Of a DNA stretch of 64,000 bases, positions 10,495 to 64,000 are shown piece by piece (the stretch's first letter is position 1; each line of letters opens with the position of its first letter). The DNA comes from Actinomycetota bacterium. GTDB taxonomy: Bacteria; Actinomycetota; Actinomycetes; Propionibacteriales; Propionibacteriaceae. The translations under genes were made by a program, and so were the position numbers. Below the pieces are notes generated by a model. It made no database searches, was not told the DNA's origin, and saw only the letters and a list, made by a program, of their open reading frames with translations. The stretch is taken from the NCBI GenBank assembly GCA_020161755.1, contig JAIUOS010000005.1:62001-126000 (forward strand), read 5' to 3'.

Positions 10495-13400
10495 ATGGCC
10501 CGATCCGGCCGAGACCATGCCGTGCCGATGAGTGCTGCGTCACGAACACTGCTGAGGCTGCTGCTCTCCTTCGTCCTGGTCGTCACCGGGCTGATCGTCG
10601 CCGCCCCCACCACCGCGTCCGCCGCGGGCGCCATCACGCTGTCCAAGACCAGCGACGGCACCGTCCTTCTGGGCGGCAACGCCGGCTTCACCCTCACCGC
10701 GGGCAACGCCGCCGGCAACCCTGAGCAGTACAACCTGTCCTACACCGACACGCTGCCCCCCGGCGTGGCCTACGTCGACGGTTCGACCAGCCCGGCCAAC
10801 TTCGGCGAGCCCGAGATCATCACCACCGAGGTGGTCGTGGACGGGACGACCTACGACCAGCAGACGCTGGTCTGGGCCAACGTGTCCGACCTCACCCCCG
10901 GCTCCACCATCGCCCTCCACTTCGCCGCGGAGGTCGACCCGAAGCTCTACCCGATCGGTTCGGACGTCAAGAACACCGCGACCGCGGTCACCAGCTCCGA
11001 CCCCCGAGAGGTGCCCGAATTCGACCCGACCGGCGCGCCGGTCCCGGGCGTCGAGACGGTGTCCGCGAGCTCCTCGAGCACGACCGCCGTCACCGCGATC
11101 CGGATCACGAAGGCGTCCGGGGTGGACGGCGAGCTGACCCCCGAGGACGAGCTGATGCGGGGCGTGAACGACCACCAGTCGGTCTACTCCCTGACCGTGA
11201 CGAACAACGGCGTGGACAAGACCGACAGCGTGGTCGTCACCGACTACCTGCCGGCCGGCCTGGAGTTCCTGGGCTGCGGCGGCGACTTCAACTCCACCAA
11301 GCCGGAGTACCCGGGCGCGTCCAACGTCGTCGACGACGTCGCCAAGTGCACCGAGCCGAAGACCGTCGAGACGGTGCAGGACCCGAAGGGCTACCCGGCC
11401 GGCGTCTACACCAAGGTCATCTGGGAGCTGGATTCGATCCCGGCGTCCGGGAAGTCCGTGATCCGCTACGCGGCGGGCATCCCGCAGCGCTCGAACACGA
11501 TGGACTTCGGCGGCGAGACCCCGGCCATTGACGGGGCGCAGGCGGCGAACCTGGACAACAACAACGGCGCGGCCACGACCGAGACCAAGAACGAGCTCGG
11601 GCTGACGAACTACGCCGAGGCGGCGGGCAACTTCGAGGGCGCCGGCGTCGCCGACACCACCAACCACACCGTCACCGCCGAGGACCTGCGGATCGTCAAG
11701 GGCGTCTCGCCGCAGACCTTCTCCCAGGGCGAGCTGGCCACCTACACCCTCGTGGTGGACGCCAGTGAGTACGCGAACGCCAGCAAGCTCGTGATCACCG
11801 ACGAGATGCCGGCGGGCCTCTGCCCGGTGCAGACCAGCGATCCCTCGTACACGCCGCCGGTCGCGGAGTGCAAGATCGACCAGGGCGAGAAGCCCACCAA
11901 CGGCAGCATCACCGGCGTGATCGCCAACGCGGACGGATCCTTCACCCTCACGATCACCCCCGACAAGACGAGCCTGGACGCCAACGGCAACCTGGTCATC
12001 ACCTACCAGGCGCTGATGCGCCAGTACTACGACGTCGACTCCAGCGCCCCCACGTCGGCCGCCGACTCGTTCACCAACACCGTCCGGATCGACGGGGTGA
12101 CCGTCCCGCCGGACACGGTGAACGCGCCCATCACCGACGTGCAGGAGGTCAGTGACGAGTCCAGCGCGACCATCCTCTCCGGCGGTCCGCAGCTCACCAA
12201 GCTGAGGATGGCGAACGCCACGCCGATGTCGTGTTCGGAGAAGATCGGCGACTACTCCGACGACCCGGACGACGACACCAACCCGTTCGCCGAGGGTGAC
12301 CGGGTCTGCTTCTTCCTGCGGCTGGACTTCCCCGACGCCGTCGACACCCGCAACGCCCAGCTCACCGACTTCCTGCCGCTCAACCTGACGTACGAGTCCT
12401 CGACCGTCGTCACCGGCAAGGACCTGGTCGCCGCGATGCTGCCCGACACCCCGACGAACTACGTGCAGTGGCAGCTGGGCTCTGGCAAGCCGCGCGTGGT
12501 GCCCAAGGGGTCGGTGTTCGAGGTGGTGGTCTCGGCCATCGTCTCCAAGCCGGCGCCGGTCACCACCCCGGTGAAGGTGCTGGACAAGGACAACCTTGCC
12601 AAATTCCGCTACACCAACTCCGCCGGGCTCAGCCAGTCGTTGCGCGACTCGGTGACCGTGCCGCTGGGCCCGCCCCCGCCGATCGGCATCGTCAAGGGTG
12701 TGGAGTCGCTGAACGGCACCACCCTCGACGCCGGCGCGCCCAACAACCTGGACGGCGTCCAGGTGAAGGGCGACGACAAGGTCGTCTTCCGGATCGACGT
12801 GTCGAACCTGGCGAGCGCCGGGGAGATCAACGGGGACACGATCCTTGCGCCCGACGTCTGGGACGTCCTGCCGGATGGCATCACCTGCGCGAACATCAGC
12901 ACGATCAGCGACAGCGGCGTCTGCTACGACGCCGGTGCCACCGGCCGCCCGGCCCTGGCCAGCGGCAACACCACCTCCGCCGTGATCCGCTGGCAGCTGC
13001 CCGCCGACTACACGATCACGCCCGGCGCCACGGGCAAGCTCACCTACACGATGGCCATCCCCACCGGGGTCAGCGTGAGCACGACCTACACCAACACGAC
13101 TGCTGTCGCGTCCTACACGACCGCCACCAACATCGGTGGCGTCTCGCCCGCCGCGGTGCACAACCCGGCCAACAACGTGGACGCCGGCGTGCCGTCGTCC
13201 GCCATGGACGTGCCCGCCGCGAGCGACTACTCGTGGGTCTACACGGCGGACGCCACGGTCGCCAAGAGCAACGTGACCGACATCACCGCGATCGGCAACA
13301 CCGCCTCGCAGGCGGTGGTGGGCGAGACCCTGACGTACACGGTCTCGGTCAAGATCCCCGCCCGCACCACGGTGTACAACGCCGTGCTCGTCGACCCGAT

Positions 13401-60816: not shown

Positions 60817-61560
60817 CTACGGCGAGGCCAGGTCGAGGCCGACCACCGCGCCGATCACCGTCAGGGCGGGGGGTCGGATGCCGGCCTGGGCGGCCAGGTC
60901 GGGGAGCGTGGCGACCGTGCCGCGGACGACCTGCTGGTCGGGGGTCGTCGCGTTCGCGACCACCGCGGCGGGGGTGTCGGGCGCGAGGCCGCGCTCGACC
61001 AGCCCGGCGCAGATCGCGCCCAGGTTCGTCACCCCCATCAGCACCACGATCGTGCCGCTGCCGGTCGCGAGCGCGTCCCAGTCGACCGTGGACGCCGGGT
61101 GCCCGGGGCCGACGTGACCCGACACCACCGCGAAGTTCTGGCTCAGCCCCCGGTGGGTGAGCGGGATCCCCGCCAACTCCGGGCCGGCGATCGCCGACGA
61201 CACCCCGGGGATCACCCGCACCGGCACGCCAGCCTCCGCGCACGCCAGCCACTCCTCCGAGCCGCGCCCGAGCACGAACGGGTCGCCACCCTTCAGCCGC
61301 ACCACCATCGCCCCGGTCCGCGCGTGCTCCACCAGCAGCCGGTTGATCTCCTCCTGCGACACCTGCCGTCCGCCGGGGATCTTCGCCACGTCGACCAGCA
61401 GCGCGTCCGGCCGGGTCTCCTCCAGGCAGGCCAGCGGGGCGAGGTGGTCGTACAGCACCACGTCCGCCTGCCGCAGCGCGCGCAGCCCGCCCACGGTGAG
61501 CAGGTCCGGGTCGCCCGGCCCACCGCCCACCAGCACGACCTCGCCCCGGCGGTCAGCCAT
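60817..61560 (-). CDS. cobA: Uroporphyrinogen-III C-methyltransferase
   Basis: A 247-aa SAM-dependent enzyme making precorrin-2 for siroheme or cobalamin. VVLVGGGPGDPDLLTVGGLRAL is the N-terminal SAM site, VRLKGGDPFVLGRGSEE the second, and VIPGVSSAIAGPELAGIPLTHRG the third family motif; all are intact. Its start overlaps the precorrin-2 dehydrogenase stop by 8 bases, so the two form the split equivalent of CysG. Confidence 0.93.
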   Translation of the reverse strand: MADRRGEVVLVGGGPGDPDLLTVGGLRALRQADVVLYDHLAPLACLEETRPDALLVDVAKIPGGRQVSQEEINRLLVEHARTGAMVVRLKGGDPFVLGRGSEEWLACAEAGVPVRVIPGVSSAIAGPELAGIPLTHRGLSQNFAVVSGHVGPGHPASTVDWDALATGSGTIVVLMGVTNLGAICAGLVERGLAPDTPAAVVANATTPDQQVVRGTVATLPDLAAQAGIRPPALTVIGAVVGLDLASP

Positions 61561-62032
61561 CGGCCCCGCCCAGCAGGTCCAGCAGCCGGTCGCGGAGCGC
61601 CCGCGCCGCCAGCGGGTCGTGGTTCGTCAGGACGCCGATCGTCGCGTCCCCGACCGCGCCGGTCGCCGGCGTCCACGCCGTCCCCAGTTCGGCCCGGTCG
61701 GCCCGGACGCAGAACGTGTGCCGCGCCTCCGCCGCCGCGGCCACCCGCGCGTTCACCTCCGGCGAGTCGGTCGCGGCCAGCACGTACCAGGCCCCGTCGA
61801 GGTCCGCGTCCTCGAACTCGCCCCGCCGCCACGTGAGCGCGCCGGACGCCGCCAGCGCCGCCAGGTCGGGATGCAGTTCGGGCGCGACCACGGTCACTTC
61901 GGCCCCGGCCGCCAGCAGCTTCGGGACGCGGCGCCGGTGCACCGAGCCGCCGCCGACCGCCACCACCCGGCGTCCCGCCAGCAGCAGCCCCGCCAGGTAG
62001 GCGGGCGCTCCCGGATCCGGTGGCACCGTCAC
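61553..62032 (-). CDS. Precorrin-2 dehydrogenase / sirohydrochlorin ferrochelatase-like (CysG N-terminal type)
   Basis: A 159-aa NAD-binding protein oxidising precorrin-2 to sirohydrochlorin. VVAVGGGSVHRRRVPKLLAAGAEVTVVAPEL is the Rossmann start (GGG-S-V in place of GGGxVA), and AATDSPEVNARVAAAAEA is typical. It is shorter than CysG-N/Met8p and lacks their full C-terminal dimerisation part, so iron insertion may need another enzyme. Start GTG 62032. It is an operon with cobA. Siroheme serves sulfite and nitrite reductases. Confidence 0.88.
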   Translation of the reverse strand: MTVPPDPGAPAYLAGLLLAGRRVVAVGGGSVHRRRVPKLLAAGAEVTVVAPELHPDLAALAASGALTWRRGEFEDADLDGAWYVLAATDSPEVNARVAAAAEARHTFCVRADRAELGTAWTPATGAVGDATIGVLTNHDPLAARALRDRLLDLLGGADG

Positions 62033-62075: not shown

Positions 62076-62531
62076 TCAGGCCACCGGGAAGACCAGCTTC
62101 GTCACCGTCTTCGCCGGTTCCTCGTCGGGCTCGCTGAGGTACAGCTCGTACATGGAAGGGGCGAGCTCGTGCTCCTCCATCTCCAGCCAGGGCATCAGCT
62201 CGCCGTAGGCGCCGGGCAGCTCGTCGTACGGACCGACGTGCGTCCCCACCACCGCTCGGGTCTCGGGGTGCTCCCGCACCACGAGCCCGTCGATCGCGGC
62301 CGACGCGCCGACGCCGAAGCCGATCTCGACGTCGACGGTGTCGGTCGGCATCCCGAAGTACTCCGCGTACGCAGGCCCGGCGATGCCCACCCCGGCTGCG
62401 CCCAGCAGGCCGGCCACCTGCTCGTAGGTCGGCCCGAACACCGCGGACAGGTCCTCGCGCGGCACGGTCCTCCTGACCCCCGCGCTCACCCACGCCTCCA
62501 TGTGTTCGATGTGCGGATCAACGCCCGTCAT
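62076..62531 (-). CDS. GyrI-like effector-binding domain protein
   Basis: A 151-aa single-domain protein of the GyrI/SOUL-like small-molecule-binding fold. EDLSAVFGPTYEQVAGLLGAAGV, AYAEYFGMPTDTVDVEIGFGV, GTHVGPYDELPGAYGELMPWLEMEEHE and the terminal YELYLSEPDEEPAKTVTKLVFPV are all family-like. It probably binds a small or toxic ligand. GAGGAGG precedes ATG 62531, and a TAGCGT box lies at 62567-62562 (minus). It is 43 bases upstream of the siroheme genes on the same strand, so co-transcription is possible. Confidence 0.87.
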   Translation of the reverse strand: MTGVDPHIEHMEAWVSAGVRRTVPREDLSAVFGPTYEQVAGLLGAAGVGIAGPAYAEYFGMPTDTVDVEIGFGVGASAAIDGLVVREHPETRAVVGTHVGPYDELPGAYGELMPWLEMEEHELAPSMYELYLSEPDEEPAKTVTKLVFPVA

Positions 62532-62600: not shown

Positions 62601-62649
62601 GGCCCTTCGTGACGCTTCGTTCGTTCCTCACGACGCTCCTCAGGGAACG
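62601..62649. repeat. GGCCCTTCGTGACG repeat, copy 2
   Basis: A 49-base unit starting GGCCCTTCGTGACGCTTCG and ending CTCCTCAGGGAACG, in the same orientation as copy 1. It lies directly upstream of the cysteine leader promoter. Confidence 0.75.
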
Positions 62650-62666
62650 CGGAACTCGGCGTCCGC

Positions 62667-62672
62667 TATCCT
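62667..62672 (+). promoter_or_regulatory. -10 box of the cysteine leader peptide
   Basis: TATCCT ends 6 bases before ATG 62679 with no Shine-Dalgarno between. The mRNA would thus start at the leader peptide's own ATG. Confidence 0.6.
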
Positions 62673-62678
62673 TCCGGC

Positions 62679-62747
62679 ATGCACAGCGACCGGATGCGGG
62701 GCCGAATGCCGGCCCGTTGTTGTGCCTGCTGTCGGTGTTGGCTCTGA
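62679..62747 (+). CDS. Cysteine-rich leader peptide (attenuator uORF)
   Basis: A 22-codon reading frame, MHSDRMRGRMPAR, then Cys-Cys-Ala-Cys-Cys-Arg-Cys-Trp-Leu and stop. Five of nine late codons are cysteine (62718-62738). It seems leaderless (TATCCT 6 bases upstream). Poly-cysteine leaderless uORFs are known in mycobacteria and other actinomycetes, where slow translation at low cysteine raises expression of downstream sulfur genes. Two hairpins follow before the transporter gene. The peptide itself probably has no function beyond being translated. Confidence 0.8.
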   Translation: MHSDRMRGRMPARCCACCRCWL

Positions 62748-62761
62748 CCGAGCCCGACCCA

Positions 62762-62814
62762 CGGACGCCTCCGTCCGCACGACCTTCCACCACCCCGTCC
62801 CGGATGCCCGGGAC
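62762..62814 (+). promoter_or_regulatory. Attenuator hairpins between cysteine leader and transporter gene
   Basis: CGGACG-CCTC-CGTCCG (62762-62777) and GTCCCGG-ATGC-CCGGGAC (62797-62814) are perfect 6- and 7-bp hairpins, 15 and 50 bases after the leader stop. They could be the alternative structures whose choice depends on ribosome stalling at the cysteine codons. No T-run is present, so control could be by occlusion of the AGGAG at 62841 or by Rho. Confidence 0.5.
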
Positions 62815-62854
62815 CGCACCCGACACCGTCCGGCCGACTCAGGAGCCAGCCACC

Positions 62855-64000
62855 ATGACCAAGACCGCCGCCCGCCTCGCCGCAGCGCTCGCCGCCCTCG
62901 CGCTGACCGCGTGCACCGCCACGCCCGCCAGCACGCCGACCGCCGCGAGCACCGCCCCGCAGCACGGCGGGACGATCACCTACGGACGCCCCGCCGCGGT
63001 GACCTCGTTCGACCTCAACAACCAGATCACGTCCAACAACGCGTTCGCCATCGACAAGGTGTTCGAGCCGCTCGTCTCCTTCGACACGACCGGCAAGATC
63101 ATCCCCTGGCTCGCCGAGAAGTGGGACGTGAGCTCCGACCTGCTCACGTACACCTTCACCCTGCGCGACGGCCTCCAGTTCTCCGACGGCACCCCGGTGA
63201 CCGCGAAGGACGCGAAGTTCTCCCTCGAACGCCACCTCAAGGTGGAGGGACCGCTGCCGCTCCAGGCGCCGATCGCGAGCATCACCGCCACCGACGACCG
63301 CACGCTGACGATCGTCCTGAAGAGCGCGTACACCCCGTTCCTGTCGGAGCTGTCCGGGTTCTCCAACGGCATCTTCCCGGCCGACTTCGGCGGGAGGACC
63401 GAGAAGGAGTTCTTCGCCAAGCCGATCGGCACCGGCCCGTGGGTCGTCGACTCCTGGGACCCCAGCGGCGACACCACCTTCAGCGCGAACCCGCACTACT
63501 GGCAGGAGGGCAAGCCGTACGCCGCGAGCCTGGTCTACAAGGTGGTCGCGGGGGACAACCAGCGCATCCAGCAGCTCGAGGCCGGCCAGCTGTCCGGTAT
63601 CGAGGGCGTGGCGCCGGCCACCATCGCCCAGCTCTCCGGGGACGCGAACGTGACCGTCTCCGAGCTGGGCTCCTGGGAGGTCGAGCAGGTGTTCTTCAAC
63701 ACCCAGAACCAGTACTTCGCCGACCCCCACGTCCGCCGCGCCATCGCGCTGTCGCTGAACCGGGACGCGATCACGCAGGCCGTCACGTTCGGTGCCGCCC
63801 AGACCGTGAAGACGCTGATCCCGCCGACGATCCAGTACTCGGCGGACGTGAAGGCGCTCGACAACGACCCGGCGGCGGCGAAGACGGAGCTGGCCGCGTC
63901 CAGGTTCCCGCAGGGGTTCACCGCGACGATCCTGATCGCGTCCGGCAACTCGGTGCGCACCCAGGAGGCGCAGATCATCCAGGAGGCGGTCAAGCCGCTG
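62855..64000 (+). CDS. ABC transporter substrate-binding lipoprotein, family 5 (partial, runs off the window)
   Basis: 382 codons are visible. The lipoprotein signal has lipobox LTAC with Cys20, followed by a Thr/Ala/Ser/Pro linker. SBP_bac_5 hallmarks include GGTITYGRPAAVTSFDLNNQ, LRDGLQFSDGTPVTAKD and PIGTGPWVVDSW. AGGAG precedes ATG 62855. It is a different branch from the SBP at 838-2643. The upstream cysteine leader and nearby siroheme genes suggest a sulfur-containing ligand (for example a cysteine/glutathione-like peptide); this is inference. Permease genes should follow outside the window. Confidence 0.9.
   Translation, partial: MTKTAARLAAALAALALTACTATPASTPTAASTAPQHGGTITYGRPAAVTSFDLNNQITSNNAFAIDKVFEPLVSFDTTGKIIPWLAEKWDVSSDLLTYTFTLRDGLQFSDGTPVTAKDAKFSLERHLKVEGPLPLQAPIASITATDDRTLTIVLKSAYTPFLSELSGFSNGIFPADFGGRTEKEFFAKPIGTGPWVVDSWDPSGDTTFSANPHYWQEGKPYAASLVYKVVAGDNQRIQQLEAGQLSGIEGVAPATIAQLSGDANVTVSELGSWEVEQVFFNTQNQYFADPHVRRAIALSLNRDAITQAVTFGAAQTVKTLIPPTIQYSADVKALDNDPAAAKTELAASRFPQGFTATILIASGNSVRTQEAQIIQEAVKPL

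Follow-up and report, generated by a model that had tools for sequence, protein, structure and literature searches.

We identified a 22-codon upstream open reading frame (uORF) which we judge, with a probability of roughly three in four, to be a cysteine-responsive leader peptide on the leaderless transcript of an Opp/Dpp-type importer operon, working by the mechanism proposed below. The window, that is, the whole 64 kb stretch of DNA that was analyzed, comes from a Propionicimonas-like lineage of Propionibacteriaceae (genome G000). Judged from sequence, the uORF very likely belongs to the class of leaderless poly-Cys attenuators known in mycobacteria and has a new target, because it is conserved, matches other leaders of the genus and is the only kind of match in our background scan.

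A cysteine-rich uORF precedes a complete importer operon

The uORF MHSDRMRGRMPARCCACCRCWL occupies positions 62679-62747 of the forward strand, with its ATG at 62679 and its TGA at 62745-62747. It contains five Cys codons, and its Cys run sits near the stop codon, the combination of short ORF and Cys run by which the class is recognized. A -10 box, TATCCT (62667-62672, forward strand), lies 6 nt (TCCGGC) upstream of the ATG and predicts a leaderless transcript. The coordinates, box and codon count given in a preliminary description of this DNA were all confirmed on the sequence.

In the 64 kb window, searched on both strands for a TANNNT box with a leaderless start and a short Cys-rich ORF (at least four Cys), this uORF was the sole match. 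Thirty simulated windows gave a mean of 0.07 matches with at least four Cys and none with at least five Cys in 25 codons or fewer; at the Cys frequency of the operon itself (0.34%), at least five Cys in 21 codons has a probability of about 1e-8. A background scan of 353,060 unselected strand-bases returned six matches, all of them the transporter uORF of G000 or of its orthologues. Inside the uORF, directly 5' of the Cys codons, a stable hairpin GGGCCGAATGCCGGCCC (62699-62715) is followed by GTTGTTGTG; it is present in G137 and absent in G154. Upstream, a CCTTCGTGACGC...CTCCTCAGGGA-like stretch (62605-62650), also found 5' of the sirA uORF described below (L079, about 11330-11390), is probably a dispersed repeat.

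The gene that follows, 107 nt downstream of the uORF, encodes a family-5 solute-binding lipoprotein (SBP) of 514 aa (forward strand, 62855-64000, continuing to G000:C5:126396). The family given for it before is confirmed by a PF00496 match (301 bits), and an AGGAG stands before its ATG at 62855. An upstream in-frame GTG at 62609 was ruled out as its start since the lipoprotein signal and the Shine-Dalgarno sequence (SD) place the start at 62855. The SBP gene heads a complete operon in the order SBP, permease, permease, ATPase, ATPase::amidohydrolase, which extends past the window end. The amidohydrolase is prolidase-like and, in G000, joined in one frame to the second ATPase. The joint of these two (L009:6983-9004, just outside the window) carries two copies of a palindromic stretch, AAAGGGGACAGTCCCCTTT, and the G137 counterpart consists of two separate overlapping genes; the G000 arrangement looks like a fusion through repeat insertion.

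Siroheme genes had been placed just upstream on the other strand. The strand is right: a siroheme-type TP_methylase (60817-61560) and NAD_binding_7 gene (61553-62032) lie on the strand opposite to the SBP. "Just upstream" holds only loosely, with a GyrI-like gene (62076-62531, minus strand) between them and the uORF. Because they are on the other strand and set apart by one gene, they add little. No sulfur genes were recognized in the neighborhoods inspected, a point against the main reading.

The leader is conserved among close orthologues

Orthologous SBPs (75-100% identity) are present in seven of 30 genus members, G000 counted. The preliminary description had proposed a search for conserved Cys-rich uORFs in front of them, and the search succeeded: the leaderless Cys-run uORF is intact in five of the seven, G000 included, with four to five Cys each. 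A TAT[CT]CT box stands at the same place in all seven and lies 6-7 nt before the ATG in the five with an intact uORF. The intact peptides (MHSDRMRGRMPARCCACCRCWL, MHSDRMRGRMPAPCGACCRCWC, MYGNRMHGRMLRCAACCRCWR and MRSDRMCGLSVALFRVGCCCC, the last in two orthologues) all begin with MxxxRM and are rich in Cys toward the end. The Cys positions shift between orthologues (CCACCRC versus CGACCRCWC), with five Cys in both G000 and G137. In G155 and G150 the middle of the peptide differs, yet the end is CCCC.

Nucleotide identity of the uORF was 62/69 and 65/66 in the two pairs compared, higher than the 0.70 at the fourfold-degenerate sites of the SBP gene (70% in the 65/66 pair). The spacer between uORF and SBP gene is less conserved than the uORF in the same pairs (61/89 with 14 gaps and 79/91 with 35 gaps). 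Third codon positions of the G155/G150 uORF are conserved as well.

The remaining two orthologues have broken leaders. G146 has GTG and a one-base frame break, leaving the remnant CRRCRC before a stop; G148 (L028) has AAG in place of ATG and has lost the stop, leaving CRCWFC. Both retain the -10 box, two hairpins and Cys codons in phase, and therefore it seems that either the sensor is decaying in this sub-branch or part of the element functions without it. In G148 an open frame that lacks a regular start codon extends from the AAG across the Cys remnant and ends in a TGA overlapping the SBP ATG (ATGA), possibly a relic or a shift to translational coupling.

The importer is also present in more distant relatives (53-63% identity) from Leucobacter, Cryobacterium, Paenibacillus and Bifidobacterium, and we found no Cys leader before it there. 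Orthologous loci without Cys codons had been named as evidence against the idea; as it turned out, five of seven close orthologues keep the Cys run, two have broken uORFs and the leader is absent at 53-63% identity. Because of the two broken copies and the lack of a Cys leader in the wider family, the coupling of Cys leader to importer appears from these comparisons to be a feature of the clade, not of the transporter, and the sensor has been gained or lost between close relatives. An exact match to the leader-start pattern was found nowhere in the genus outside the transporter locus.

The genus has sister uORFs in front of cysteine genes

G000 carries two further Cys uORFs: MNEPTRVVRALRNISAGSMCCAC (ending SMCCAC before the stop) in front of sirA in a sirA-cysDH operon, and MHTRRLAASLSSSRVLSCMCCCRRLA (ending SCMCCCRRLA before the stop) in front of a DUF4395-thioredoxin-cysE operon; sirA, DUF4395 and thioredoxin were assigned by reading of the sequence. 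The sirA-type uORF, with SMCCA before the stop, occurs in six genus genomes, the copy of G146 lying on a contig end without sirA. A leaderless Cys uORF accompanies the cysE operon in 16 genus genomes (16 loci among L247-L266, e.g. L266, minus strand), preceding DUF4395-thioredoxin-cysE in G000 and cysE directly in others. In two genomes (G127 and G092; loci L281 and L289), metQ-type importers are preceded by leaderless Cys uORFs that differ from each other, MAISARMCDRMCRPCPACCCC and VANHTMSISSTRMCCMCMACRCR, which suggests that these importers serve cysteine supply. A recurring genus-wide TGTTGTCCTTGTTGA was ruled out as a leader, having no in-frame start. When the whole family was searched for four Cys codons plus TGA, nearly all matches were due to chance.

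These sister uORFs, together with a background in which only the transporter uORF matched, place the transporter uORF among leaders on cysteine and sulfur genes. That the other leaders of the group sit on such genes is the strongest argument that cysteine is the signal. Taken together, the comparisons speak well for the proposal that a leaderless Cys leader controls the SBP gene by cysteine supply: five of seven orthologues preserve the frame together with the Cys run and the -10 box, and sister uORFs stand at sirA, cysE and metQ. The two broken close orthologues weaken it.

Proposed mechanism

We infer that ribosomes would load straight onto the 5'-terminal AUG. With cysteine plentiful, they would pass the Cys codons and leave the uORF; the uORF end could then fold onto the SBP SD, the C-rich spacer could be free for Rho, or both, and expression would be low. 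When charged tRNA-Cys is scarce, ribosomes would stall in the Cys run at the uORF end and sit over both the anti-SD arm and the start of the spacer; the operon of the importer would then be expressed. The importer would then be one arm of a cysteine-starvation regulon that includes sirA-cysDH and cysE. Its cargo is probably a sulfur source, peptide-like or amide-linked, which the co-encoded prolidase-like amidohydrolase would open.

The elements on which the output step could act lie between the uORF and the SBP gene. The end of the uORF forms an anti-SD arm, GTTGGCTCT (62737-62745, forward strand), complementary to the SD region, and in G000 it pairs with GGAGCCAGC; the SD, AGGAG with its following bases, spans 62841-62851, of which 62843-62851 take part in the pairing. 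A ribosome covering the uORF stop in G000 changes the SD opening cost by -3.7 kcal/mol, and none of 60 shuffles did as well. The leader of G154 gains weakly and those of G137, G155 and G150 not at all; beyond G000, conserved SD masking is thus not supported.

The two hairpins noted earlier between uORF and SBP gene are real (forward strand): CGGACG-CCTC-CGTCCG at about 62762-62777 and GTCCCGG-ATGC-CCGGGAC at about 62797-62814. Hairpins fall at the same positions in the predicted folds of G137, G154, G146 and G148, with mostly different stems. They lack a U-run and do not look like terminators, and no intrinsic terminator was found after the uORF, the only terminator-like match being the hairpin inside it (62699-62715).

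Alternative explanations

We considered whether the uORF might encode a functional small Cys-rich protein, metal- or thiol-binding, and not a sensor. An N-terminal MxSDRM part conserved among orthologues would fit; the peptides nevertheless diverge outside the Cys run, their Cys positions move, and unrelated Cys-ending peptides precede sirA, cysE and metQ, which makes such a protein very improbable. Slightly less remote, though still improbable, is that conservation acts on an RNA structure or an operator, the Cys frame being incidental and cysteine playing no part. The 3' block CTGCYGYCGGTG..GG..CTG persists in G146 and G148 despite their broken ORFs, the hairpin positions are retained there, and the third codon positions of the G155/G150 uORF are conserved, all as an RNA element would predict. 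Set against this, the block in G155/G150 has been swapped for another sequence, again with four Cys codons at its end, cysteine genes of the same genus are preceded by sister Cys uORFs, and T-box, SAM and other Rfam elements were found neither at the G000 locus nor in the near-relative loci tested.

The two weightier alternatives accept the cysteine-responsive uORF and concern what it does and what it serves. Its output may be Rho-dependent transcription termination in the spacer instead of SD masking. The C-rich spacer of G000 (62748-62840, forward strand; about 51% C and 24% G) is a candidate Rho-loading stretch, and C exceeds G in the spacers of all seven orthologues (0.35-0.53 C and 0.21-0.27 G, with 0.36/0.35 in the window), although in a genome of 70% GC the C-richness of a leader speaks only weakly for Rho, and two hairpins interrupt the stretch. 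Termination by Rho also agrees with the lack of an intrinsic terminator and of conserved SD masking, and the available text of a study of mycobacterial and P. acnes cys leaders proposes it for them (PMC1262725); the SD pairing in G000, far stronger than in shuffles, argues the other way. We consider termination by Rho in place of SD masking plausible but less likely than not; within G000 itself the odds of SD masking and Rho are roughly equal. Cys stalling, the step of sensing, stands on firmer ground than the output. Comparable in weight, plausible but on balance doubtful, is the view that an importer unrelated to sulfur, such as a general peptide or metal importer used as an amino-acid scavenger, acquired a Cys-responsive leader. 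The wider family in Leucobacter, Paenibacillus, Cryobacterium and Bifidobacterium does without the leader, and neither a T-box nor a SAM element was found in its loci tested. The best NCBIfam and PDB matches of the SBP are NikA-, GsiB-, DppA- and AapF-like, all three equivalogs scored falling under curated cut-offs (GsiB 155 of 594 bits, DppA 137 of 1005, NikA 193 of 393), and neither the SBP nor the permeases match NCBIfam above a curated cut-off. Against this stand the selection that maintains the Cys sensor in five of the seven orthologues and the nature of its other targets, which are cysteine genes.

A possible substrate of the importer

Substrates of family-5 importers are rarely guessable from sequence. 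A codon-specific leader shows which amino acid is in shortage when the importer is wanted, and thereby suggests a sulfur role for a widespread operon. Assigning the transporter to sulfur acquisition, as had been done, is a reasonable conclusion from the leader but was stated too strongly. A fair guess for this clade is a peptide or amide-linked sulfur source.

The relatives at 53-63% identity mostly carry the amidohydrolase, and often a class-V aminotransferase, with the importer. The closest solved relatives are a pyridoxamine-pyruvate-type aminotransferase for the class-V enzyme and prolidase/amide hydrolases for the amidohydrolase. We tentatively propose, at not quite even odds, that the operon, in Actinobacteria and Firmicutes, is dedicated to importing and hydrolyzing a peptide-like compound, either cysteine-containing or organosulfur. 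It would be made up of the importer, the prolidase-like amidohydrolase and, in relatives, the class-V PLP enzyme, and this clade alone would have put it under the control of a cysteine-sensing leaderless uORF. If so, the uORF would give the first hint at what this SBP_bac_5 subfamily takes as substrate.

Comparison with known systems

The domain order and families of the operon are those of Opp/Dpp-type importers such as the glutathione importer GsiABCD, DppABCDF and NikABCDE. Unlike these, it includes an amidohydrolase, to which relatives add a class-V aminotransferase. It also differs from a trp-type transcription attenuator in having no intrinsic terminator after the leader ORF.

Cysteine attenuation through such uORFs in mycobacteria, on which the preliminary description drew, is borne out for M. 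smegmatis, where papers citing Canestrari 2020 report, in their available text, that leaderless Cys uORFs are cysteine-responsive attenuators (PMC9031893, PMC9094748, PMC13236596). Polycysteine leaderless uORFs are likewise described at the mycobacterial cysA2, nirA and Rv0485 loci in the accessible parts of Shell 2015 (PMC4633059) and of papers citing Canestrari 2020. Cys leader peptides were predicted before cys operons of Mycobacterium and Propionibacterium acnes and before cbs of Bifidobacterium longum (Seliverstov 2005, PMC1262725, available text). We found no earlier report in the literature of a leaderless Cys attenuator before a family-5 (peptide-type) importer. As far as the available text of Seliverstov 2005 goes, those leaders resemble ours in having Cys codons close to the stop and no conserved terminator, with Rho proposed there, but they front biosynthesis genes and ours an importer, and leaderless starts go unmentioned in that text. 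With the mycobacterial attenuators, as the accessible sources present them, the uORF shares a start predicted to be leaderless, the short ORF, the Cys run near the stop and an operon behind, which is a sulfur or cysteine operon in mycobacteria; here an entire family-5 importer operon that includes an amidohydrolase is the target, the host is one of the Propionibacteriaceae, and the cysteine response is predicted. Propionibacteriaceae would join mycobacteria as carriers of the cysteine-attenuator regulon, which would have several targets within a single genus.
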